From: Spirochaetae bacterium HGW-Spirochaetae-3
GTDB taxonomy: Bacteria > Spirochaetota > Spirochaetia > Treponematales > UBA12059
Assembly: GCA_002839315.1 (NCBI GenBank)
Contig: PGXV01000001.1
Location: 124,001-188,000, forward strand
Direction of reading: 5' to 3'
Length of the DNA stretch: 64,000 bases
Of the stretch, positions 28,458 to 46,872 are shown in pieces (position 1 is the first letter of the stretch; each line of letters begins with the position of its first letter). A program made the position numbers and the translations under genes. The notes beneath the pieces were generated by a model, which saw only the letters and a list, made by a program, of their open reading frames with translations, searched no databases and was not told where the DNA came from.

Positions 28458-29975
28458 ATGGAAACACTAGCGATTATCAACGCGACGAGCGTAAACGAAT
28501 TCGCGACGAGGCCGCTTGCGGGCGGTCCGAGCGCCCTGGCCCGGGCTGAAACCCTGGCGAGATCCGTAGCCGGCGGCAATATCCTGGTCCTGGCTTCTTC
28601 GCCTCTTCCGGATACGGGGTTGCCGACCGTCCTGAAGCCATCCTGGAGCATGCACGACGTCCTGTCGGAGGCCGCCGCGTTCGCCTCGTCAAAACCGGAA
28701 TCCGATACCGTACTCTACCTGCAGGGCGACGCCCCGTTCGTGGATGCCGCCCTTACCGATACGCTCCTGGAGCTGCATCGAAGGTACCGCGCGGAATATA
28801 CGTTCGCGGATGGGTACCCGCCGGGATTCGCGCCCGAGCTACTCGCGGTCAAGACGCTACCCAACCTCGTCGGGCTGGCGGCGAAGCATGACGTCCCCGT
28901 GGACCGCGACGGGCTATTCGCCGTTATACAGAAGGACATAAACTCGTACGATATAGAGACGCACCTGTCTCCCGTCGACCTCAGGGCATACCGATTCTCA
29001 CCCGTTTGCGACTCTAAACGTAACGCGCTGTCGGCGGAGCGCCTCTGGAACCTCGGGGCCCGCTCCGCGGCGGACGCTGTCAGGCTACTACCGGTCCATC
29101 CGGAGCTGTTGCGGACCGTTCCCGCGTTCATGTGGGTCCAGGTCGCCGAGGGTTGCCCCCAGGCATGCTCGTACTGTCCCTATCCCATGATGGTCGGCGA
29201 TCCCAGGAGCCTGTCCGGGGTAATGCCGACCGATCGATTCGAGCGGCTCATGGCCGACGCGGAGGCTCTCTGCGACGACCTGGTCGTCGACGTATCCCTA
29301 TGGGGCGAGCCTTCGTTGCATCCGGACTTTCAGAAGATAGCCGACTCCGTCATGGCGAGGCCGCGATTCACGCTGATAGTCGAGACGAGCGGCGTAGGCT
29401 GGCCCGCCGGAGCGGCCGAAGCGGTAGCGAAGAAGGCCGGAGCCCGCGTACAGTGGATCGTATCGCTCGATGACGAGGACGACGCGGGCTATCGATCCCT
29501 CCGCGGCGAGCGTCGGGACGAGGCGATCGCCTTCGCCGACCGCATGATAGGCGTCAGCCCCGGCAACGTGCACGTCCAGGCGGTCAGGATGCGGGACAAC
29601 GAGCCTCGCCTCGAGTCGTTCTATCGAGGCTGGAAGAAGCGCGGGGACAAGGTGATCGTGCAGAAGTACGACTCGTTCGCCGGTTGCCTGCCTGACAGGA
29701 CGGTCGCTGAACTGTCTCCGCTGGATCGGCTGCCGTGCAGGCACCTGGCCAGGGATATCGCCGTGCTTATCGACGGACGCGTACCTAACTGCAAGCATTG
29801 CCTGGTCCGCGGCGCCGACTCCCGGCTGGAATACGCCGGGAGCGCGGGCAACGCCTTCGACGACGGCTTGGAGACGACATGGAATCGGATGGGCGCCTGG
29901 TACGAACGGCATCTCGCATCCGATTATCCCGAACCCTGCGGACGTTGCGATGAATACCATACCTTTAACGCTTGA
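28458..29975 (+). CDS. spirochaete-type radical SAM/SPASM protein with nucleotidyltransferase-like N-terminus
   Basis: 505 residues in three parts. Residues 1-~175 look like a GT-A nucleotidyltransferase fold of the SpsF/MobA kind (LYLQGDAPFVDAALTDTLLEL, then ADGYPPGFAPELLAVK). Residues ~220-400 are a radical SAM domain with C233-x3-C237-x2-C240 binding the [4Fe-4S] cluster. The C-terminal part carries SPASM-like cysteines (LPCRHLA, NCKHC, CGRCDEY) for further clusters. It resembles the spirochaete-restricted spiro-SPASM group, whose reaction I do not know. It begins a five-gene run and overlaps the next gene by 26 bp. Radical modification of a nucleotide sugar or an amino acid is an inference. 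Confidence 0.75.
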   Translation: METLAIINATSVNEFATRPLAGGPSALARAETLARSVAGGNILVLASSPLPDTGLPTVLKPSWSMHDVLSEAAAFASSKPESDTVLYLQGDAPFVDAALTDTLLELHRRYRAEYTFADGYPPGFAPELLAVKTLPNLVGLAAKHDVPVDRDGLFAVIQKDINSYDIETHLSPVDLRAYRFSPVCDSKRNALSAERLWNLGARSAADAVRLLPVHPELLRTVPAFMWVQVAEGCPQACSYCPYPMMVGDPRSLSGVMPTDRFERLMADAEALCDDLVVDVSLWGEPSLHPDFQKIADSVMARPRFTLIVETSGVGWPAGAAEAVAKKAGARVQWIVSLDDEDDAGYRSLRGERRDEAIAFADRMIGVSPGNVHVQAVRMRDNEPRLESFYRGWKKRGDKVIVQKYDSFAGCLPDRTVAELSPLDRLPCRHLARDIAVLIDGRVPNCKHCLVRGADSRLEYAGSAGNAFDDGLETTWNRMGAWYERHLASDYPEPCGRCDEYHTFNA

Positions 29976-30912
29976 CTCGTATAAGCCGACGTATACGGTG
30001 CTCGGCGGAGGGCGCGGCTCGGGCTGCAAGGACGGCTTCCCGGTATCGGTACTATTGCTCAATCGAGGATCGAGGCTCTACCGCGCCTCGATGATCCAGG
30101 ACCTGGTGAAGGTAGGATTCGATTCGATCGTGTCCGTGGAGGGCCTGAGCGATTCGCCCGAGCTCGAGGGCCTCGCGTCCAGGTATCCCCAGGTCCGGTT
30201 CGTCTGCCTGCACGAGGAGGCGAACCTGGGCGTCAAGATCAACATCGGCGTCAGGGAGTCGTGCTCCCCCTTCGTCCTCGTGCTATGGAACGACATGCGC
30301 CTGGCCACGAGCACCCTCTCCAGCAGGTTCTTCGACAAGGTCGTCGACCTGGACGCGGCCTGCCTCGTACCGACGCTCAACGACCCGGCCGGGTCGACGG
30401 TCCCTTCGATCAGCCATCCCGCCCAATCGGGGAAGGCCTTCAGGGTCGTGCCGCTGCCGCCCAAGGCGGACGGCGAGAAGAGCCTGTATCCGTTCGACGC
30501 CTGCGGAATCTACTCGCGGGAGAAATTCACGTCGCTGGGCGGTTACGACTGGACCATAGCGAATCCGTATTGGCAGAAGATGGATTTCGGGATGCGCGCC
30601 TGGCTATGGGGCGAATCGATACGTTACGCCCAGGCCCTCCGCATTAATTACGAAGGCGCGCCGGCGTCCGAGGATACGACGCCAGACAGCGATTACGGAC
30701 GCTTCTGGCTCAAGAACCTCGCGCCCTCCTACCGCGGCGATTCGGCAGCGCTGCCCCGTTCCAGGATGCTGAGATATATCGCGCGGTCGCGCAAGAATCC
30801 CAGGACGGCATGGGAAGAGTACAAGGCCGCCCGGGACTGGATCGTGGCCTGCTCGTACCGTTTCAAGGCCGACGCGTCGAGGCTCGCCGACCTGTGGGAT
30901 CCGCTATCGTGA
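29950..30912 (+). CDS. glycosyltransferase-like (GT-A/GT2-type) protein
   Basis: 320 residues. VSVLLLNRGSRLYRASMIQDL, EEANLGVKINIGVRESCSPFVLVLWNDMRLA-type residues (about 95-125) and the later GGYDWTIANPYWQKMDFGMRAWLWG segment match the layout of GT2 enzymes: nucleotide-binding strand, acidic metal site (here the Asp of WND) and acceptor-side ED-like region. Weaker than a textbook GT2, so the reaction is not certain. It overlaps the radical SAM gene by 26 bp and the next gene by GTGA, which ties it closely to this cluster. Confidence 0.65.
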   Translation: MNTIPLTLDSYKPTYTVLGGGRGSGCKDGFPVSVLLLNRGSRLYRASMIQDLVKVGFDSIVSVEGLSDSPELEGLASRYPQVRFVCLHEEANLGVKINIGVRESCSPFVLVLWNDMRLATSTLSSRFFDKVVDLDAACLVPTLNDPAGSTVPSISHPAQSGKAFRVVPLPPKADGEKSLYPFDACGIYSREKFTSLGGYDWTIANPYWQKMDFGMRAWLWGESIRYAQALRINYEGAPASEDTTPDSDYGRFWLKNLAPSYRGDSAALPRSRMLRYIARSRKNPRTAWEEYKAARDWIVACSYRFKADASRLADLWDPLS

Positions 30913-31595
30913 GCCGAGGCGAGCGCGCCGGCGTCGTGGTTCAGATGCGCCTGGACTCGACGAGGCTGCCGGGCAAGGCGATGCTCGAGATCGGCGGTAC
31001 CACGCTCGCGGGCATGGTGATGCGCAGGCTCCGCGGTATACGGGCGGACGAGATGATCCTGGCGACGGACGCCGACGGAGCTCGCGCTCTCGCCGGCGTC
31101 GCGGCGGAATTCGGTTTCTCCGTGTTCGCCGGCCCCAAGGACGACGTGCTCGGCCGCTACGCTATGGTGGTCGACGCGTTCGGGCTCGGTCGCGTAATAC
31201 GGGCGACCGGCGACAATCCGTTCGTGTCGATCCCGTTAGCGGAGATCGCCGTCGCCGCCGCCGACGACTCGGGAGCCGAGTACGTCGGGCTCGTCGGCAT
31301 GCCCGCCGGCATGGGCGTCGAGGTGGTCGACGCGGCGGCGCTGATGGAGGCGTCGGCGTCCGCATCGACCGCGTTCGACCGGGAGCACGTCTGTCCGTTC
31401 CTGTACGGGAACCCCGGTCGTTTCAAGGTGCTGAGGCCCGGGTGCCCGGAGGCGTATCGCCTGCCCGAAGGCCGGTTGACCGTAGATACGGCGGAGGATT
31501 TCAGGCGAGCCGAGGCCATCGTCGCGTCGCTCGGGCCGGAGCCTTCCGACGCCCAGCTCCTGTCCTGGCTATCGGAACCAACGAGGGCGGGCTAA
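30909..31595 (+). CDS. SpsF-like cytidylyltransferase/nucleotidyltransferase
   Basis: 228 residues from a GTG that overlaps the previous stop (GTGA). VVVQMRLDSTRLPGKAMLEIGGTTL is the nucleotide-binding start of the CMP-NeuAc synthetase/SpsF family, followed by VFAGPKDDVLGRY and IRATGDNPFVSI with the metal-binding Asp. The C-terminal segment RLTVDTAEDFRRAEAI is also typical. Such enzymes activate nonulosonic acids or similar sugars with CTP, in spore-coat and flagellar glycan pathways. It sits directly before an SpsG-like gene, the usual partner. Confidence 0.85.
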   Translation: MSRGERAGVVVQMRLDSTRLPGKAMLEIGGTTLAGMVMRRLRGIRADEMILATDADGARALAGVAAEFGFSVFAGPKDDVLGRYAMVVDAFGLGRVIRATGDNPFVSIPLAEIAVAAADDSGAEYVGLVGMPAGMGVEVVDAAALMEASASASTAFDREHVCPFLYGNPGRFKVLRPGCPEAYRLPEGRLTVDTAEDFRRAEAIVASLGPEPSDAQLLSWLSEPTRAG

Positions 31596-31600
31596 GCGTC

Positions 31601-33409
31601 ATGATCGAAATTCTCCTCGTGCCTTCGGTTCGCCGCGGAAACGGCTCGGGACACCTCGTGCGATGCTTCGGTCTGGCGAGGGAGCTGGGCCCGCAGGCCG
31701 CCGTCTACCTGCCCGATGATCCAGGCATCGGCTCATGGAGCTCTGACGAGCTCAAGCTGGCATATCCCCGGGAAATGGGGTCGGTAAGGACCATCGGCGC
31801 GCTACGTTCCGATGCGCGCTTCCGTCTCGTCGTCCTTGACAATCGCGAGACGAGCGCATCCGTCCTGGAAAAGTGGGCGGTCCAGGGAGCCGTCGTCGCG
31901 GTGGACGAAGGAGGGGAGGCGAGGAACGCCGCTCCCTATCTCGTGGATATACTGCCGCGGCCCGCCGGACGCGTTAAGGCCGGAACCCCTCCCAATATAG
32001 CGTCCCTCGGATTCCTGCCTCTGCCAGCCGGGAGGCGAGAGCCCCCGACGTCGATACATCGGGTGCTCGTCAGCTTCGGCGGCGAGGATCCGGCCGGCCT
32101 GGCTAACGCGTTCCTCTCTGCGGCGGTCGGGGACGGGTTGCTGGGCGCCGAGCGCGTTACCGTCGTCTCGGGCGCGCTGTCGAACTCCGAGGCCATGTTC
32201 CCCGGCGTTACCGCCATCGGACCGGTGCAGGATCTCAAGGAAAAGCTACAGGCGTTCGACCTCGTCGTCACGCAATTCGGCCTGACCGCCTTCGAGGCGG
32301 CCTGGGCGGGCTGCGCGGTGTTGCTCCTCAACCCGGGCATCGTGCACGAGAGGCTATCCGACGCCGCTGGCTTCACGAGCCTCGGTGTCGGGAGGCCGAA
32401 CAAGCGGGCCCTGCGAGACGCTCTCGCCGACCCGCGGGCGATGCTGAAGGCTTCCCGCGACGCGGCTCCGCGCGAGCGCCTCGACCTGGCCGCTAGAATA
32501 TCGGCCCTGACGCCGAAACACGCGGGCGCATGCCCGGCCTGCGGAGAAGGCAATGGAATCGCGTTGTATCGGAACGAACGGAAGACCTATCTCCGCTGCC
32601 CGGCATGCGGTCTCGTGCGCATGGCCCATTTCGCGCCCAGGCAGAATCCGTACGCCGAGCGCTCGTATTTCTTCGAAGAATACAAGGCGCAGTATGGTCG
32701 GACCTATATAGAGGATATACCGATGATACGGGCGGCCGCGGCGAAACGGCTCACCGTTATCGAATCCATCATGCCGGCGGCTCACGAGGGGCAGAGCGTG
32801 CTGGACGTCGGCTGCGCCTACGGGGCGTTCGTCGCCGAGGCCCAGGCCAGGGGATGGAACGCCGTGGGATCGGACGTGGCGCCCGACGCCGTGGAATACG
32901 TCAAGGCGAATTACGGTATCCCGGCGTTCATCGCGGATTTCGCCGAGCCGGCCGCCGACGGTCTGTATCCCCGGGGGCTGGCCTGCCTGACGATGTGGTA
33001 CGTCATCGAGCACTTCGACGAGCTGGCGCGCGTACTCAGGCGCGTCGGGTCGCTGCTCCGCGAGGGCGGAGTATTCGCTTTCTCGACGCCGTCGTGCTCG
33101 GGCGTATCGGCGCGGAAGGACGCGGACGATTTCTACGATAGATCGCCCGACGATCACTTCACGGTCTGGAGCCCCGCTACCGCTCCCGGTATTCTCAAGC
33201 GATACGGTTTTGAGGTACAACGTATCGTCGTTACCGGACACCATCCGGAACGGTTCCCGGGCGTACGCGACGATAAGCGCTCGCTCGGATACAGGGCCGC
33301 GATGGCGGCCTCCAGGCTCTTCGGATTGGGCGACACCTTCGAGTGCTACGCCGTATACCGGGGCCGGGCAGACGGAGCCGCCCCCGCGCGGCCGGCGGAG
33401 CGAAGATGA
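31601..33409 (+). CDS. SpsG/PseG-like domain fused to zinc ribbon and SAM-dependent methyltransferase
   Basis: 602 residues. Residues ~1-300 match SpsG/PseG (RRGNGSGHLVRCFGLARELG with the key His, VVAVDEGGEA, VSFGGEDPAGLANAF, VVTQFGLTAFEAAWAG), which remove UDP from modified sugars. Then a CPAC...CPAC zinc ribbon (about 307-340) and a class I methyltransferase with motif I VLDVGCAYGAFVAEA and motif IV-like LTMWYVIEHFDEL. The two catalytic parts are usually separate proteins, so the fusion suggests successive steps on one sugar. The ATG at 31601 follows a short gap; no strong Shine-Dalgarno is seen. The stop overlaps the next start (ATGA). Confidence 0.8.
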   Translation: MIEILLVPSVRRGNGSGHLVRCFGLARELGPQAAVYLPDDPGIGSWSSDELKLAYPREMGSVRTIGALRSDARFRLVVLDNRETSASVLEKWAVQGAVVAVDEGGEARNAAPYLVDILPRPAGRVKAGTPPNIASLGFLPLPAGRREPPTSIHRVLVSFGGEDPAGLANAFLSAAVGDGLLGAERVTVVSGALSNSEAMFPGVTAIGPVQDLKEKLQAFDLVVTQFGLTAFEAAWAGCAVLLLNPGIVHERLSDAAGFTSLGVGRPNKRALRDALADPRAMLKASRDAAPRERLDLAARISALTPKHAGACPACGEGNGIALYRNERKTYLRCPACGLVRMAHFAPRQNPYAERSYFFEEYKAQYGRTYIEDIPMIRAAAAKRLTVIESIMPAAHEGQSVLDVGCAYGAFVAEAQARGWNAVGSDVAPDAVEYVKANYGIPAFIADFAEPAADGLYPRGLACLTMWYVIEHFDELARVLRRVGSLLREGGVFAFSTPSCSGVSARKDADDFYDRSPDDHFTVWSPATAPGILKRYGFEVQRIVVTGHHPERFPGVRDDKRSLGYRAAMAASRLFGLGDTFECYAVYRGRADGAAPARPAERR

Positions 33410-34986
33410 AGTCAGTATTGATACTGGGCGCGGGCGGTATGCAGGGCCCCGCGATTCGTTTGGCGAAGGCCAAGGGCTATCGCGTCTACGCGGCCGACGG
33501 GAATCCCCTCGCGGCGTGCGCGTCGATCGCCGATGAATTCCTCCACATCGACCTAAAGGACAAGGAAGCCCTGGCGGAGGCGGCCGCCGGTATTCGCGGC
33601 CTCGCGGGCGTCCTTACCGCCGGCACCGACTTCTCGGCGTCGGTAGCCTGGGTGGCCGAACGGTGCGGACTGCCGGGGATCCCGTACGAAGCGGCCCTCG
33701 ACGCCTCGGACAAGGCCCGGATGCGCGCCAGGCTCGAGGCGGCGGGAGTCCCCGTTCCGCCGTACGCCTTCGGAACGTCGGCAGACGATCCCGAGGCGCT
33801 GGCCTCCCGAGTCTCGCCGTTGCCCGTCGTCGTAAAGCCGGTCGACAATATGGGCGCCCGCGGTTGCAGGCTGGCGCGCACTATTCCCGAGCTCCGCATG
33901 GCATGGGACGACGCCGTCTCGTATTCCAGGTCCGGCCGCGCGATAGTCGAGGCCTATATGAGAGGCCCCGAATTCAGCCTGGACGCGATCGTCCGGGATG
34001 GCGAGGTTACGCTGCGCGGCATAGCAGACCGAGTCGTCGTATTCGAGCCGTTCTTCGTCGAGATGGGCCACACGATGCCTACTGCGTTCGGGCCGGAGGT
34101 GGTCGACGAGGTCGTCGCCGTATTCAAGGCGGGCATCGAGGCGCTAGGCATCCGCGACGGCGCGGCGAAGGGCGATATCAAGTATACCGAACGCGGAGCC
34201 TTCGTCGGGGAGATAGCGGCGCGGCTCTCGGGCGGCTATATGTCAGGCTGGACCTATCCATACGCCAGCGGCATAGAGGCGACCGCGGAAGCCATAGACA
34301 TCGCCTGCGGCGTATCGCCGGGCCGCGCCGAGCCGACCTTGGACCTCGTCTGTTCCGAGAGGGCATGGATATCGATTCCCGGCAGGATAGCCGAGATACG
34401 CGGACTCGACCTGGCCGCCGGCCGGGACGGCGTCCGCGACGTATTCCCCCGGGCGTCCGTCGGCGACCGCGTCGTGTTCCCGTGCAACAACGTCGAGAAA
34501 TGCGGTAACGTGCTCGCCGTCGCCTCGTCGATAGCCGAGGCGGACGATGTCGCGGAGGCCGCGGCCCGGGCAATCCTCCTACGACTGGAGCCCGGCGACG
34601 GGGATACGGCGGCCTTCCTCCGCGGCGAGGGACGCATCGTCGGGCCCGACGGTACCAGCTGGCCGCCTGACGCCTTCGAGGGGCTGTCGGCCATGACCCG
34701 TTCGTCTCTGGCCAAGATGCCGGACATGCTGCGGATTGACCCCGAGGCGGAGACGGTATCCATAGCGCCGTTACGCGGCTCGGAGACCGAGTCGGCCGTA
34801 GACTGGCAAGACCGGACCATCACGATGGCGCTCGAGGCCGTGAAGGAGCTGACCGGCGCGACGGTGGGCATGCACGGCGACGCTGTAGTGGGCGCGGCCT
34901 TCTGGAAGGCGTTCTTCCGCGGCGGGTACCAGGCCGGCGCGTGGGTCGTCGATAGCGTGTCGCGTCGCGGGAATAAGCCCAGATGA
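33406..34986 (+). CDS. ATP-grasp ligase with C-terminal extension
   Basis: 526 residues. The N-terminal preATP-grasp domain starts KSVLILGAGGMQGPAIRLAK. The ATP-grasp core has PLPVVVKPVDNMGARG (lysine and glycine-rich loop), VEAYMRGPEFSLDAIV and the catalytic EIAARLSGG with a preceding D/E pair. Relatives join an acid to an amine (amino acid ligases, carbamoyl-phosphate synthase L-like). The C-terminal ~120 residues after the core are not recognised. In this cluster it could attach an amino acid to a sugar amine or carboxylate; that is inference. It overlaps both neighbours by ATGA. Confidence 0.75.
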   Translation: MKSVLILGAGGMQGPAIRLAKAKGYRVYAADGNPLAACASIADEFLHIDLKDKEALAEAAAGIRGLAGVLTAGTDFSASVAWVAERCGLPGIPYEAALDASDKARMRARLEAAGVPVPPYAFGTSADDPEALASRVSPLPVVVKPVDNMGARGCRLARTIPELRMAWDDAVSYSRSGRAIVEAYMRGPEFSLDAIVRDGEVTLRGIADRVVVFEPFFVEMGHTMPTAFGPEVVDEVVAVFKAGIEALGIRDGAAKGDIKYTERGAFVGEIAARLSGGYMSGWTYPYASGIEATAEAIDIACGVSPGRAEPTLDLVCSERAWISIPGRIAEIRGLDLAAGRDGVRDVFPRASVGDRVVFPCNNVEKCGNVLAVASSIAEADDVAEAAARAILLRLEPGDGDTAAFLRGEGRIVGPDGTSWPPDAFEGLSAMTRSSLAKMPDMLRIDPEAETVSIAPLRGSETESAVDWQDRTITMALEAVKELTGATVGMHGDAVVGAAFWKAFFRGGYQAGAWVVDSVSRRGNKPR

Positions 34987-36035
34987 GGAAGAGGACGGGC
35001 GCGCTCGCGACCATCATCCTGGCTCTCTCCGTTTCGGCGGCGGCGCAAGGCGCGTCGGCCGCGACGCGCGACGTCATGGCCGTCGCAGCGGAATGGAAGG
35101 CCTCGGTCGCTTACGACCCGCTGACCGGTACCGGGCATATCCTACGCGGCGGGGACCTCGTGCGATTCAAGCGCGACTATCCCGTCTTCTCCGCAGGGGC
35201 GGGGATAGCGATCCGCGCCCCCGCCATTCGCGACTCCGGCGCCCGACTGGAAATACGCGTCGAAACCGTCGTAGCGCTGGAACGATGGTTCGCCGAACGC
35301 GACGCGGAGCGGGCCTCACGCTTCAGCATCGCCGCGATACTCATCGATCCGGGCCATGGCGGAAAGGATTCCGGCGCGATAGGCGAATTCGGTTCGGGCA
35401 AGGATCGCCTCCGCATACTCGAGAAGGACGTCGTCCTGGCGATAGGCAAGGACGTATACGGCAGGCTCCAGTCCAGATGGCCCGACAAGCGTATCCTCCT
35501 CACGCGGTCGGGCGATACGTACCCGTCTCTCGACGCCCGGGTCGATATGGGCAACGACGTGCAGCTTGGTATAAACGAGGCCATAATATACGTCTCTATC
35601 CACGCTAACGCCTCGTTCAACAAGTCCGCCTCGGGCTACGAGGTCTGGTACCTTAACCCCGAATATAGGCGGACGGTCGTTGACTCAAAGAAAGCCGAGG
35701 GCGTCGACAAGCACGTCCTGCCTATACTCAACGCCATGCTCGAGGAAGAGTACACGACCGAGAGCGTCTTCCTCGCCAAGAGCATCCTCGGCGGTGTCAC
35801 GAAGAGCATCGGGGACCTTTCTATAGACCGGGGCATACGCGAGGAAGAGTGGTTCGTCGTAAGAAACGCCAAGATGCCGTCGGTTCTGGTCGAGGTGGGA
35901 TTCGTTACGAACGAGGCCGAGGCGAGGATGCTTTCCGACCCCGAACACTTGCGCAAGCTCGCGGACGGCATCTATAATGGCGTAGTTGATTTTGTAGATT
36001 ATTTCGAACACAGGAAAGGCACCGGCGCACCGTGA
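34983..36035 (+). CDS. N-acetylmuramoyl-L-alanine amidase (Amidase_3)
   Basis: 350 residues. A signal peptide (RTGALATIILALSVSAAAQGASA) precedes a ~100-residue N-terminal region and an Amidase_3 catalytic domain: ILIDPGHGGKDSGAIG (first zinc His), later the conserved Glu region around ILEKDVVLAIGKDV, IYVSIHANASFN (second His) and VLVEVGFVTNEAEARML (catalytic Glu). It cuts the bond between MurNAc and the peptide in the periplasm. The order amidase, small membrane protein, flaA is seen also in Treponema genomes, which suggests a link between wall remodelling and periplasmic flagella. Confidence 0.9.
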   Translation: MRKRTGALATIILALSVSAAAQGASAATRDVMAVAAEWKASVAYDPLTGTGHILRGGDLVRFKRDYPVFSAGAGIAIRAPAIRDSGARLEIRVETVVALERWFAERDAERASRFSIAAILIDPGHGGKDSGAIGEFGSGKDRLRILEKDVVLAIGKDVYGRLQSRWPDKRILLTRSGDTYPSLDARVDMGNDVQLGINEAIIYVSIHANASFNKSASGYEVWYLNPEYRRTVVDSKKAEGVDKHVLPILNAMLEEEYTTESVFLAKSILGGVTKSIGDLSIDRGIREEEWFVVRNAKMPSVLVEVGFVTNEAEARMLSDPEHLRKLADGIYNGVVDFVDYFEHRKGTGAP

Positions 36036-36586
36036 ATCGATCGTTAGAAACCTTCCTGAATGCGGCCCGCGGGGCTCTGAACGTCGCTTTGCAGCCCAGG
36101 ATCCTATGGTCCGCGATACTCTCTGTCGTATTCCTTACCAGCGCCATATCCTTGATGACCGTCCATAGGCAGAGCGCGGTCGTCGTATGGTTCCCCGATT
36201 CCCGATCCGAGGGGAGAGCCAAGGCCAGGCCCGAGATACGGTACGTACGATATTCGAGGGACGTCGCGTCTCAGGCGTCGGCCGTCGTAGAGGAAATCCT
36301 ATTGGGGCCTCTCGACGCGTCGTCGAGGCCCATTTGCGTACCGACGGCTACGGTACGATCCGTCATACGTTCCAAGAAGACGCTATACGTCGATATCGCT
36401 GGATCGATGCTTTTCGGCAGGGTCTCCGCATCGGGTATATACGAGGCGCCTCCATTGGAGCCTCGCGTCGCCCTCGGCTATATCGAGCGGGCCTTGCGGT
36501 ATAATTTCAGTTTTTTTTCCATCGTATTGACCGTCGATGGCCTGGAGCCGGCCTGGAGACCGCGAGAAGTGCCTATAGGGGCTTAA
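36032..36586 (+). CDS. membrane-anchored GerMN-domain protein
   Basis: 184 residues from a GTG overlapping the amidase stop (GTGA). One membrane helix (about 24-43, ILWSAILSVVFLTSAISLMTV) is followed by a GerMN-type domain: VVVWFPDS, VVEEILLGPLDASSRPI, a short beta region ending in LYVDIAGSMLF and ALGYIERALRYNF. GerMN domains occur in spore germination and cell-wall-linked proteins and are probably structural or protein-binding. It is cotranscribed with the amidase and lies just before flaA. Confidence 0.75.
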   Translation: MNRSLETFLNAARGALNVALQPRILWSAILSVVFLTSAISLMTVHRQSAVVVWFPDSRSEGRAKARPEIRYVRYSRDVASQASAVVEEILLGPLDASSRPICVPTATVRSVIRSKKTLYVDIAGSMLFGRVSASGIYEAPPLEPRVALGYIERALRYNFSFFSIVLTVDGLEPAWRPREVPIGA

Positions 36587-36600
36587 ATTGAATAAAATAA

Positions 36601-36628
36601 TTGACAAAGGGTATGGCTTGACTATAAT
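36601..36628 (+). promoter_or_regulatory. strong consensus promoter of flaA
   Basis: Exact TTGACA (36601-36606), 16-bp spacer and exact TATAAT (36623-36628) in an AT-rich stretch, with AAGGAG (36665-36670) before the start at 36678. This is the best sigma70 promoter in the window and fits an abundant structural protein. Confidence 0.92.
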
Positions 36629-37760: not shown

Positions 37761-37784
37761 TCAGTAGCGCGCGCTAATATATGA

Positions 37785-37818
37785 GGCCGCCCGTTCAGGG
37801 CGGCCTTCTTGTTTTTTT
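37785..37818 (+). terminator. rho-independent terminator of flaA
   Basis: GGCCGCCC (37785-37792), 5-nt loop, GGGCGGCC (37798-37805), followed by TTCTTGTTTTTTT. Perfect 8-bp GC stem and long T tract. Confidence 0.95.
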
Positions 37819-37827
37819 AATCTTCGC

Positions 37828-37856
37828 TTGCCCGCCCGCGCGGATAGGCGTATCCT
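37828..37856 (+). promoter_or_regulatory. promoter with possible leaderless start
   Basis: TTGCCC (37828-37833), 17-bp spacer, TATCCT (37851-37856). The ATG at 37864 lies 7 nt after the -10 box and no Shine-Dalgarno is present, so the transcript may begin at or next to the start codon. Confidence 0.45.
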
Positions 37857-37863
37857 TCATCCC

Positions 37864-39108
37864 ATGGATAGCATTGAACCCATACCGAGCAGGGCATCGC
37901 TTGAGAAAGCGTATAAGTCCAACAAGAAACTACTTGAAAGCATTTTGGGCGAGATGGTTGCGAGAATGCAGGGAACCCTGGATACCGCGGGCCTTTTCCC
38001 CGCGTATAAGAACAGGATCAAGTCGTTCCAGAGCTATTTCGCGAAGAAGATCAAGTTCATGCGGGACGCGTCATCGGCCGGTACTCCGCCATTGCCAATA
38101 ACCGACCTTCTAGCGGTCCGCATTATCTGTCCGTTCATAGGGGACCTTGATCGCGTAGAGAAGGCGTTGGCGGAGCGGTTCACGGTTCGCGAAGTAGAAC
38201 GGAAGGGCGCCGAACGTTCCTTCAAGGAATTCGGCTACGAATCGACGCATCTACTCCTGGAGGTACCGCCTGAATTAGCGAAAGGATCGAGCTTCCTCGA
38301 TCCTCCGGTATGCGAGGTCCAGATACGTACCATCCTGCAGGACGCATGGGCGGAGGTAGAGCACGAGCTCGTATATAAGGCCGAATTTACCCCGTTCGAC
38401 GACCCCATGAAGCGTAAGCTGGCGGCGTTGAACGCGAACCTGACGCTATCGGATATGCTTTTCCAGGAGATTCGGGATTATCAGCACCAATTGACCAATG
38501 AGCTGGCTAAACGGCGGGTCGCGTTCTTCAAGAAGATAGAAGACGCCATAGACAAGGATCTATACGCCGGTATAAAGGAATTGCCCGTAGCCGGCGGTGA
38601 AGAACCGAAGCAGCCCGCCTGGCTCGGTCCCTGGAAGTCGTTGGACGACCTGCTCCTCGAGGCGCTGAACGCCCATAACCGCGCCGACTACGTGCGCGCT
38701 ATCGATATCTATTCGCATATCCTGGCCATGAACCCGAAGCCGGAGATACGCGCGTTGATATTCAAGCATCGCGGCATGGCCTTCTTCGCCGAGAGCAGGT
38801 ACGACGAGGCCAGGGAGGATTTTACCGCGACTATCGATATAGACCCGAAATGCTATAAGGCCGCGTACTATCGCGGCGTCGTGCATAGCGTCAAGCAGAA
38901 TTATTCGGCCGCGATAGACGATTTTAATAACGCGCTAGCGATACACCCGTACCACTTCTATTCGACCTACAGAAGGGCGCAAGCCTATTACCATATCGAG
39001 GATTATCCCAAGGCGTTGGCCGATTGCGACTCGGCCCTCGAGCTGGAGCCCGAGAACGAATCGTTGAAGAAGCTGAAGGGGATGGTGCTCAAGAAACTCA
39101 AGATGTGA
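37864..39108 (+). CDS. RelA/SpoT-domain protein with C-terminal TPR repeats
   Basis: 414 residues. The first ~215 form a (p)ppGpp synthetase-like domain: KNRIKSFQSYFAKKIKF, ITDLLAVRIICPFIGDLDRVEKAL, FGYESTHLLLEVP and VCEVQIRTILQDAWAEVEHELVYK, all key synthetase positions including the Asp and the Glu of EVQIRT. No HD hydrolase domain is present. After a linker, about 130 residues hold three to four TPR repeats (KHRGMAFFAESRYDEAREDF, AYYRGVVHSVKQNYSAAIDDF, YRRAQAYYHIEDYPKALADCD). It would be a small alarmone synthetase regulated by protein contacts. It follows flaA but has its own promoter. Confidence 0.85.
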   Translation: MDSIEPIPSRASLEKAYKSNKKLLESILGEMVARMQGTLDTAGLFPAYKNRIKSFQSYFAKKIKFMRDASSAGTPPLPITDLLAVRIICPFIGDLDRVEKALAERFTVREVERKGAERSFKEFGYESTHLLLEVPPELAKGSSFLDPPVCEVQIRTILQDAWAEVEHELVYKAEFTPFDDPMKRKLAALNANLTLSDMLFQEIRDYQHQLTNELAKRRVAFFKKIEDAIDKDLYAGIKELPVAGGEEPKQPAWLGPWKSLDDLLLEALNAHNRADYVRAIDIYSHILAMNPKPEIRALIFKHRGMAFFAESRYDEAREDFTATIDIDPKCYKAAYYRGVVHSVKQNYSAAIDDFNNALAIHPYHFYSTYRRAQAYYHIEDYPKALADCDSALELEPENESLKKLKGMVLKKLKM

Positions 39109-45267: not shown

Positions 45268-46872
45268 CTAACGACGGGCCGCGTCCGCGAGCGCCGCTTC
45301 CAGGCGGCCGCTCCAGTATGCAGCCTCCGCCGATACGCGCCTGAGCGCGTCGCCTTCGAGGCCGAGGACCCGCTCGGGATCGGGGAAGTGCGCGTACAGG
45401 AAATCTGCTTCCTTGAGCAACGCCCGCATATCCCCGTCGCTCGCGCCCGTTCGTAGCGCGCTCGCCACATTCCCGGACCGTTCCAGCTCGCCGGAAAGGA
45501 ATCTAGACGCGTTGTCCCTGCAGAGGGCAGGATCGGCCTCTGAACCGAATGCGCGTCCATCGCCGCTACCTTCCCGCCCTGGCGTCATCGATTCAAGATC
45601 CTCGACGGTTATGAGGGGGATCGGCAACCGAGCTCCGAAGCCTCCGCGCAGGTCGCCGTAGATTCGTCCGTGGTCGATGAATTCCGCCGCCGCCAATGAC
45701 GCGTACATCGTCAGGGCCGGGTCCGTCAGCGAGCCGTCTTCCTTGCGCTCGCAACCGTCGCGGAACGACGCGGCCCACGCGGCGTCGCCCTTGCGTAGCC
45801 TCGTTTCCGATCGCCTCGACCGCAGGTCGGCGGGGCTGCCGGCGCAGTGGGTAGCGCCCTGGATGAAGGAGAAGTCGAGTCCCGCGACGACGACGGGACC
45901 GCCTAGCTCCCTGGCGATCCGTATGGCGAGCACGCCGACCGATCCGAGCGGCGGAACCGGCGCTACAGGCAGGCCGGCGGCCTTCAGGCGGCTCAGGAAC
46001 GCGCTTTCCGTATATTCGCTCAAGGTAAGGGTCCTGCGGCCCCCGGTGGCCCTGTACGACGAAGGGTGGGACGTCAGATCGACGACGATCCCGGCAGGCG
46101 CGCCGTCGAGCGGAAGGAAATCCTCCAGATTATAGACCTGCCCCTCTAGGCATACTATGGCGTCGGGCACGATCCCTGCCTTGGCCAACGCTCCTGCCGC
46201 CGTATCGCAGGCCAGCACGAACGCGCGCTTGCCGAGGCGCCTGAGCGCGGGTATCGCTATATCCAGGGACGGCCCCGCTCCGCAGGCTACGACCGGCCGT
46301 CCATCAGCGGAAAGAGGGCCTACGCTCTCCCAATCCATCGATCCCAGATTCGAAATGACGTTCCTCGTCCAGAGACGGCCCATCCTGACGAGCGATAGCC
46401 TGTTACGGAAGCGTATAGAGATATCGGCGTCTATAGCTGCGAGCGATCGTCGATAGGCCTCTTCGTGCAGGGAACGGCCTCCGGACAGGCGTACCTCGAC
46501 GACGCGCCTGAACCGACGGGGTTCCGCCCCTGTTTCGAGCGCCTTGTACGCGTCGACGCAGGCTGCCGTATCCGAGACCGGCGCATCGATGCCATCCGCC
46601 GCGAGGGTTCGGCGCGCGATAGCTCCAAGGCTCTCGTCGACCTCTATGAGCAGCATGGCGCTGGAGCTCGGTAGCCTGCCCGCCAGCTCTCGTACGCCGT
46701 AGCAAAGGCACGGGGACGGTACGACGTAGAGTGTGTCCGGAAGTATGTCCGCGGCATGGGCGGCGGCGACCGGCGAGGCGCTCGGATCGCGGCTCGAGTA
46801 CAGCCACCGGCCACCGTATCGAATAGAAAGTCCCCTGCCCGTATCGACGAGCAGGGGACCGGGATCTTCCAT
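45268..46872 (-). CDS. Maf-like (DUF115) flagellin glycosyltransferase
   Basis: 534 residues. The middle carries the DUF115/MAF core: VVACGAGPSLDIAIPALRRLG, then FVLACDTAAGALAKAGIVPDAIV and, further on, VAGLDFSFIQGATHC. The Gly-rich loop and the DTA...GI.PD pattern are the family signature; Maf proteins transfer nonulosonic acids onto flagellin. The N-terminal ~180 residues and the C-terminal ~130 are less conserved. It starts 10 bp after the stop of the PpiD-like gene. With the SpsF/SpsG-type cluster (28458-34986) in the same window, a flagellin-glycosylation role is likely. Confidence 0.8.
   Translation of the reverse strand: MEDPGPLLVDTGRGLSIRYGGRWLYSSRDPSASPVAAAHAADILPDTLYVVPSPCLCYGVRELAGRLPSSSAMLLIEVDESLGAIARRTLAADGIDAPVSDTAACVDAYKALETGAEPRRFRRVVEVRLSGGRSLHEEAYRRSLAAIDADISIRFRNRLSLVRMGRLWTRNVISNLGSMDWESVGPLSADGRPVVACGAGPSLDIAIPALRRLGKRAFVLACDTAAGALAKAGIVPDAIVCLEGQVYNLEDFLPLDGAPAGIVVDLTSHPSSYRATGGRRTLTLSEYTESAFLSRLKAAGLPVAPVPPLGSVGVLAIRIARELGGPVVVAGLDFSFIQGATHCAGSPADLRSRRSETRLRKGDAAWAASFRDGCERKEDGSLTDPALTMYASLAAAEFIDHGRIYGDLRGGFGARLPIPLITVEDLESMTPGREGSGDGRAFGSEADPALCRDNASRFLSGELERSGNVASALRTGASDGDMRALLKEADFLYAHFPDPERVLGLEGDALRRVSAEAAYWSGRLEAALADAARR

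Follow-up and report, generated by a model that had tools for sequence, protein, structure and literature searches.

What do five tightly coupled genes upstream of the flagellar sheath gene flaA make in a spirochaete, and does their product belong to the flagellum? The question is raised by positions 28458-34986 of a 64,000-nucleotide stretch (the window) of the genome of Spirochaetae bacterium HGW-Spirochaetae-3 (contig PGXV01000001.1, positions 124,001 to 188,000). We propose, with a probability of roughly 60%, that this cluster is the core of the spirochaete pathway for a pseudaminic-type nonulosonic acid (NulO) glycan of flagellin, in which an ATP-grasp ligase would add an O-methylated acid instead of the acetylation catalysed by PseH. 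These genes are very probably responsible for a sialic-acid-like sugar of the internal flagella, to which the ligase, together with a methyltransferase, could add an uncommon methylated side chain.

Gene content and conserved order of the cluster

The cluster consists of five co-directional genes (designated g1-g5), and the coordinates, overlaps and domains that the initial annotation had given for them were borne out by translation and domain searches:

28458..29975, + strand: g1, TIGR04321 spiroSPASM protein with cytidylyltransferase-like N-domain, radical SAM (S-adenosylmethionine) and SPASM domains; CX3CX2C (C233, C237, C240) intact
29950..30912, + strand: g2, glycosyltransferase-like protein of GT-A fold; 26-bp overlap with g1
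30909..31595, + strand: g3, GTG start, SpsF-like cytidylyltransferase, predicted synthetase of cytidine monophosphate (CMP)-NulO; 4-bp overlap with g2
31601..33409, + strand: g4, ATG start, SpsG/PseG-like hydrolase of uridine diphosphate (UDP)-sugars (GxGHxxR), zinc-ribbon and class I methyltransferase (GCAxGxF); 5-bp gap after g3
33406..34986, + strand: g5, ATG start, ATP-grasp carboxylate-amine ligase (ATP-grasp_4 and LAL_C2); 4-bp overlap with g4

The g3 protein was assigned to CTP_transf_3 (SpsF-like) with 85.4 bits against a cut-off of 22.6; a simple SpsF motif expression matched 41/103 and was too strict to be informative. In g4 a PseG/SpsG-like N-half is joined to Methyltransf_23. This N-half matched TIGR03590 at E 3.5e-4 only and the profile of the PseG structure 3hbm at E 2e-7, and the catalytic-histidine motif GxGHxxR of PseG was found in 77 of 78 g4 proteins, the SAM motif in 76 of the same 78. 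Both domains of g5 exceeded their cut-offs (ATP-grasp_4 44.1 against 27 bits, LAL_C2 56.6 against 29.4 bits). No Pfam family matched g2; its AlphaFold model (predicted local distance difference test score 86.8) has a GT-A fold, and the best structural matches (Foldseek E 3e-13; VIA Z ~20) were polypeptide GalNAc-transferases of family GT27.

Comparison of 60 regions from diverse Spirochaetota revealed that the order g1-g2-g3-g4-g5-amidase-(GerMN)-flaA is held in most loci of the class Spirochaetia (L032-L055). The exceptions are few: g5 is located elsewhere in G165 (2,843,201 bp, which we take to be Treponema denticola), G056 (1,139,633 bp, presumably T. pallidum) and G138, L055 has no detectable g2, and in family f2 the g3 and g4 genes are merged into one coding for a single protein. 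In the other classes an SpsF-like gene comes after g1, often with an SpsG-like one as well, and g5 stands elsewhere; g2 was found in 23 of 24 Spirochaetia loci and in 0 of 36 loci of other classes. The whole set was present in 32 of 38 further loci with enough flanking sequence, where the amidase followed g5 in all 38 and flaA was found in 36. Since the order recurs in this way and g1 and g2 share exactly the same 26-bp overlap in 63 of 65 loci, the cluster is not a chance arrangement. A metagenome bin titled Treponema denticola (L204) also carries the intact cluster; it stands apart from G165 on the g1 tree, and its title is probably wrong.

Co-occurrence with flagella

The occurrence of g1, g5, flagellin and NeuB was counted in one common set of 247 Spirochaetota genomes. 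The spiroSPASM protein matched in 222 of them (201 over the cut-off), g5 was found in 213, NeuB in 224 and flagellin in 240. The seven flagellin-less genomes make up two families (f9, f12); none of them has g5, and g1 is missing from six, while the seventh gave no more than a weak and unspecific hit (E 3e-5). The 16 genomes of family f6 (0.9-1.8 Mb, presumably Borrelia) possess flagellin and lack g1, g5 and NeuB, thus flagella are not always dependent on this gene set. The three lineage-level losses support the link with flagella but are few in number.

Maf-type flagellin glycosyltransferases show the same pattern. Four genes each were detected in 6/6 class Spirochaetia carriers tested and three or four in three carriers of other classes, while the families that lack the set (f6, f9, f12), represented by one genome each, had none. 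One of the four Maf genes of the genome under study lies in the window itself:

45268..46872, - strand: Maf-type (PF01973) flagellin glycosyltransferase candidate

The co-occurrence with flagellin and Maf that the initial annotation had suggested looking for was therefore found within Spirochaetota, and wide occurrence in non-flagellated bacteria, named there as evidence that would speak against a flagellar role, was not seen within the phylum (seven flagellin-less genomes). Beyond the phylum, the best 80 of 574 candidate relatives of g5 all carried spirochaete titles save one titled 'bacterium', which is little informative on rare non-spirochaete carriers.

It could be argued that the NulO is destined for a surface or cell-wall glycan and that the amidase gene, located after g5 in all loci with sufficient flanking sequence, reflects work on the envelope. 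We regard this as very improbable, since the gene set tracks the presence of flagellin across the phylum, Maf-family genes are confined to the carriers among the genomes tested, and T. denticola requires PseI (TDE0960) for its flagellin, the PseI mutant failing in flagella (PMC9862357). The behaviour of the set as a flagellar NulO-glycan module, which co-occurs with flagellin, NeuB and Maf, is supported by these observations; this part of the initial annotation stood, and its view of an amino-acid-decorated sugar was not supported, as discussed below.

Reconstruction of the proposed pathway

The remaining NulO enzymes are encoded outside the cluster. In the genome of the window a NeuB-family condensing enzyme was located at G000:C11:339953-340636, and an adjacent dehydratase (PF02719) and aminotransferase (PF01041) at G000:C16:152841-155004, unlinked to g1-g5. 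NeuB was present in all 18 carriers tested, and a CapD-type dehydratase gene directly before a DegT aminotransferase gene was observed in five genomes. One of these is G056, which despite its size retains dehydratase (its sole PF02719 protein), aminotransferase, NeuB synthase and Maf transferases; the best NCBIfam models for the first three are PseB, PseC and PseI, and a pseudaminic-like isomer is likely on this basis. A PseH-type N-acetyltransferase (TIGR03585), the only acyltransferase searched for, was not found over the cut-off in any of 12 genomes, with no match whatever in G056, G194 and G006. Acylation of the 4-amino group is the missing step, and a ligase of the kind that forms amide bonds is encoded in the cluster.

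The dehydratase-aminotransferase pair has a conserved surrounding of its own. In the five genomes (L302:3351-9092, L303 (G056), L304, L305, L306) it is followed by a xanthine-dehydrogenase-like molybdenum-binding protein, a 2Fe-2S subunit and usually a flavin adenine dinucleotide subunit, and G056 retains all three; in several of the five a NusG-like antiterminator precedes the pair.

In the proposed route the unlinked dehydratase and aminotransferase would turn UDP-N-acetylglucosamine (UDP-GlcNAc) into UDP-2-acetamido-4-amino-trideoxyhexose. The ligase g5 would then acylate the 4-amino group with a carboxylic acid, replacing the acetylation by PseH or SpsD, and the methyltransferase half of g4 would O-methylate this acid, either free or already ligated. 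UDP would be removed by the SpsG half of the same protein, NeuB would condense the sugar with phosphoenolpyruvate, whereby the acylated nitrogen becomes N7, and the CMP-sugar would be made by SpsF (g3). Finally, Maf proteins would transfer the NulO to Ser/Thr residues of FlaB. The GT-A protein g2 and the spiroSPASM protein g1 may be auxiliary factors or take part in variable tailoring.

The model has close counterparts in known systems. The legionaminic pathway SpsM-C-D-G-E-F of Bacillus subtilis shares with it the UDP-GlcNAc dehydratase, the aminotransferase, SpsG, SpsE/NeuB and SpsF (PMC7439481); however, there SpsD acylates and the target is the spore crust, whereas here an ATP-grasp ligase and a methyltransferase accompany SpsF/SpsG, no PseH exceeds the cut-off and the likely target is flagellin. 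The Pse pathway of Campylobacter and Helicobacter (PseB-C-H-G-I-F) with Maf/PseD is alike in the nearest models (PseB, PseC, PseI), in the flagellin target and in Maf transfer. It differs in that the spirochaete scores are sub-cut-off, PseH over the cut-off is missing, and there are an extra ligase, methyltransferase, spiroSPASM and GT-A protein.

Nature of the acyl group

The functions proposed here are predictions based on sequence similarity, gene order and distribution among genomes, and for the putative substrate of g5 the masses of known flagellin glycans are a further guide. The FlaB glycan of T. denticola has 450.2 Da and is essential for filament assembly (PMC9481697); according to our model it would be the product of the pathway in this species. 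Its mass can be divided into a core of 274.1 Da (calculated 274.116 Da) and a side group of 176.1 Da, and by the nitrogen rule the even 176 Da that remain beside the 274-Da core are incompatible with a one-nitrogen acyl group, a conclusion valid for the T. denticola glycan only. A 2017 study of T. denticola reportedly described a mono-acetylated pseudaminic-type NulO with a 2-methoxy-4,5,6-trihydroxyhexanoyl group on N7, and that composition computes to 450.185 Da.

A precedent is offered by the sfmABCDE genes of Shewanella, where flagellin carries 274 + 236/250/264 Da with O-methyl groups, the outer part was judged nitrogen-free by the authors, and sfmA-D are needed for normal filaments and motility (PMC3765264). 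The sfm genes of S. oneidensis likewise encode a PseI-like protein, a SAM methyltransferase and an ATP-grasp_4 ligase, with Maf-like genes nearby (PMC3765264), and the same 274-Da mono-N-acetyl pseudaminic-type core with an O-methylated moiety recurs, measured there and computed for T. denticola. In spirochaetes the PseI-like, methyltransferase and ATP-grasp functions are all encoded, though not in one operon. The sfm operon, observed in two Shewanella species only, has a thiamine pyrophosphate enzyme (SfmB) and a reductase (SfmC) and no SpsF/SpsG, whereas the spirochaete set is phylum-wide, with NeuB elsewhere in the genome, an SpsG-methyltransferase fusion and, in one family, an SpsF-SpsG fusion. 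Because of the nitrogen rule and this precedent, an O-methylated acid accounts better for the combination of ligase and methyltransferase than an amino acid does.

The initial annotation had favoured the same NulO pathway with an amino acid, for instance an N-methylated one, attached by g5. This is compatible with the LAL_C2 domain and with the nearest well-annotated solved relatives of g5, the L-amino-acid ligases 3vot and BacD, and amino-acid-bearing NulOs occur on other flagellins, such as an N-methyl-glutamyl sugar in Clostridium botulinum, which the initial annotation may have meant. Nevertheless we consider it unlikely: behind the modified amino acids that had been ascribed to Treponema flagellin, the one glycan that could be traced is that of 450.2 Da from T. 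denticola, the sole Treponema glycan of known mass, which leaves no place for a one-nitrogen acyl group. The ideas of methylation and of an amide bond are plausible, and the earlier interpretation as a whole was partly supported.

A gene fusion may also point away from an amino acid. Outside the class Spirochaetia g5 is an open reading frame of ~715-809 aa in most genomes, fused where checked to an alpha-hydroxy-acid dehydrogenase of the flavin mononucleotide (FMN) type (Pfam on L076:16982-19210), and the same long frame was found at G078:C1:1370199-1372337 and G042:C1:774613-776835. In G056 an FMN dehydrogenase gene lies two genes past the g1-g4 block. This fusion and the nearby gene of G056 suggest that the group ligated by g5 is a 2-hydroxy or 2-keto acid. 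As a regular neighbour within the class Spirochaetia the dehydrogenase had to be rejected, being found only in G056 among the loci examined.

A more detailed version can be put forward, tentatively. The ligase may replace the acyltransferase and install a 3-deoxy-hexonic acid. The alpha-hydroxy-acid dehydrogenase that is ligase-fused in other classes would form this acid by reduction of a 2-keto acid (e.g. 2-keto-3-deoxygluconate), and the SpsG-linked methyltransferase would O-methylate it; the spiroSPASM protein may be a CMP-sugar-binding Fe-S scaffold with optional radical SAM chemistry, giving lineage-specific glycoforms.

Several points weigh against the proposed role of the cluster and of its ligase. 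The scores of dehydratase, aminotransferase and NeuB against PseB, PseC and PseI are all under the equivalog cut-offs, so the isomer is unproved. In G165, with g5 at G165:C1:2247684-2249366, and in G056 the g5 gene lies apart from g1-g4. A hexapeptide (PglD/SpsD-type) or an unrelated acyltransferase could exist, PseH being the one type looked for. Furthermore, LAL_C2 relatives join amino acids, hence in other species an amino acid or another acid is a possible substrate.

The spiroSPASM protein

With 471 bits against the TIGR04321 cut-off of 250, g1 is a full member of a family to which no pathway was found assigned in the literature searched. Its radical SAM part might make it the key enzyme of the cluster, tailoring a CMP- or UDP-sugar in the manner of BtrN or a flagellar protein in the manner of SuiB/SkfB, with the other genes in support. 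The profile match to BtrN (E 2e-19), the N-domain, which has a weak NTP-transferase-like match and resembles cytidylyltransferases (6oew), and the structural matches to SuiB and SkfB are in line with such a role, and CX3CX2C is intact in 77 of 105 spiroSPASM proteins, that of the window included. We find it improbable all the same, because the motif has been lost in 28 of the 105, among them those of G165 and G056, with the SPASM cysteines kept:

CX3CX2C lost, SPASM cysteines kept: L035, L036, L037, L042-L044, L048, L052-L059, L062, L063, L065-L069, L076, L083, L084, L089, L090, L236

The SPASM cysteines C427, C445 and C494 were present in all 105 proteins and C497 in 104. On the g1 tree, which was quickly built without the motif columns and has several long branches, presence and loss of the motif required 13 changes, at least 7 of them forced by starred branches. 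Since the motif has been lost repeatedly, radical chemistry is no universal step of the pathway. Our guess is that the common denominator of g1 is an Fe-S scaffold or sugar-binding role, tailoring being optional where the motif survives.

Downstream genes and flaA

The following features were identified 3' of g5:

34983..36035, + strand: Amidase_3 N-acetylmuramoyl-L-alanine amidase; 4-bp overlap with g5
36032..36586, + strand: small GerMN-like protein, weak match under the cut-off; 4-bp overlap with the amidase gene
36601..36628, + strand: promoter-like site TTGACA-16-TATAAT, 12/12 sigma-70-type, between the GerMN-like gene and flaA
36678..37760, + strand: flaA, periplasmic flagellar filament outer-layer (sheath) protein, by domain search
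37783-37807: terminator-like hairpin 3' of flaA

The initial annotation had the cluster running without a gap into the amidase-GerMN-flaA block, and for flaA this was wrong: 91 bp separate the GerMN-like gene from flaA and hold the perfect sigma-70-type site. This promoter-like site and the hairpin after flaA indicate that transcription of flaA may be independent of the cluster, and one continuous transcript into flaA is doubtful. The window in which the site lies has 61.7% GC. Immediately 3' of flaA there is a gene for a RelA/SpoT-domain protein with TPR repeats (37828-39108).

Significance

Flagellin glycosylation is essential for flagellar assembly in T. denticola (PMC9481697), and in Leptospira putative glycans were located by cryo-electron microscopy at the contact of core and sheath (PMC13144727). 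Among the sugar-building genes of this system, published evidence could be traced for PseI (TDE0960) only. The present analysis gives a list of candidate genes conserved down to a T. pallidum-sized genome of 1.14 Mb, and with g5 it offers a candidate for the enzyme behind the unusual acyl group on N7. The TIGR04321 protein can now be placed in a concrete predicted pathway, that of a flagellar NulO operon, and the radical SAM motif, kept in some lineages and lost in others, predicts which spirochaetes would carry differing glycoforms.

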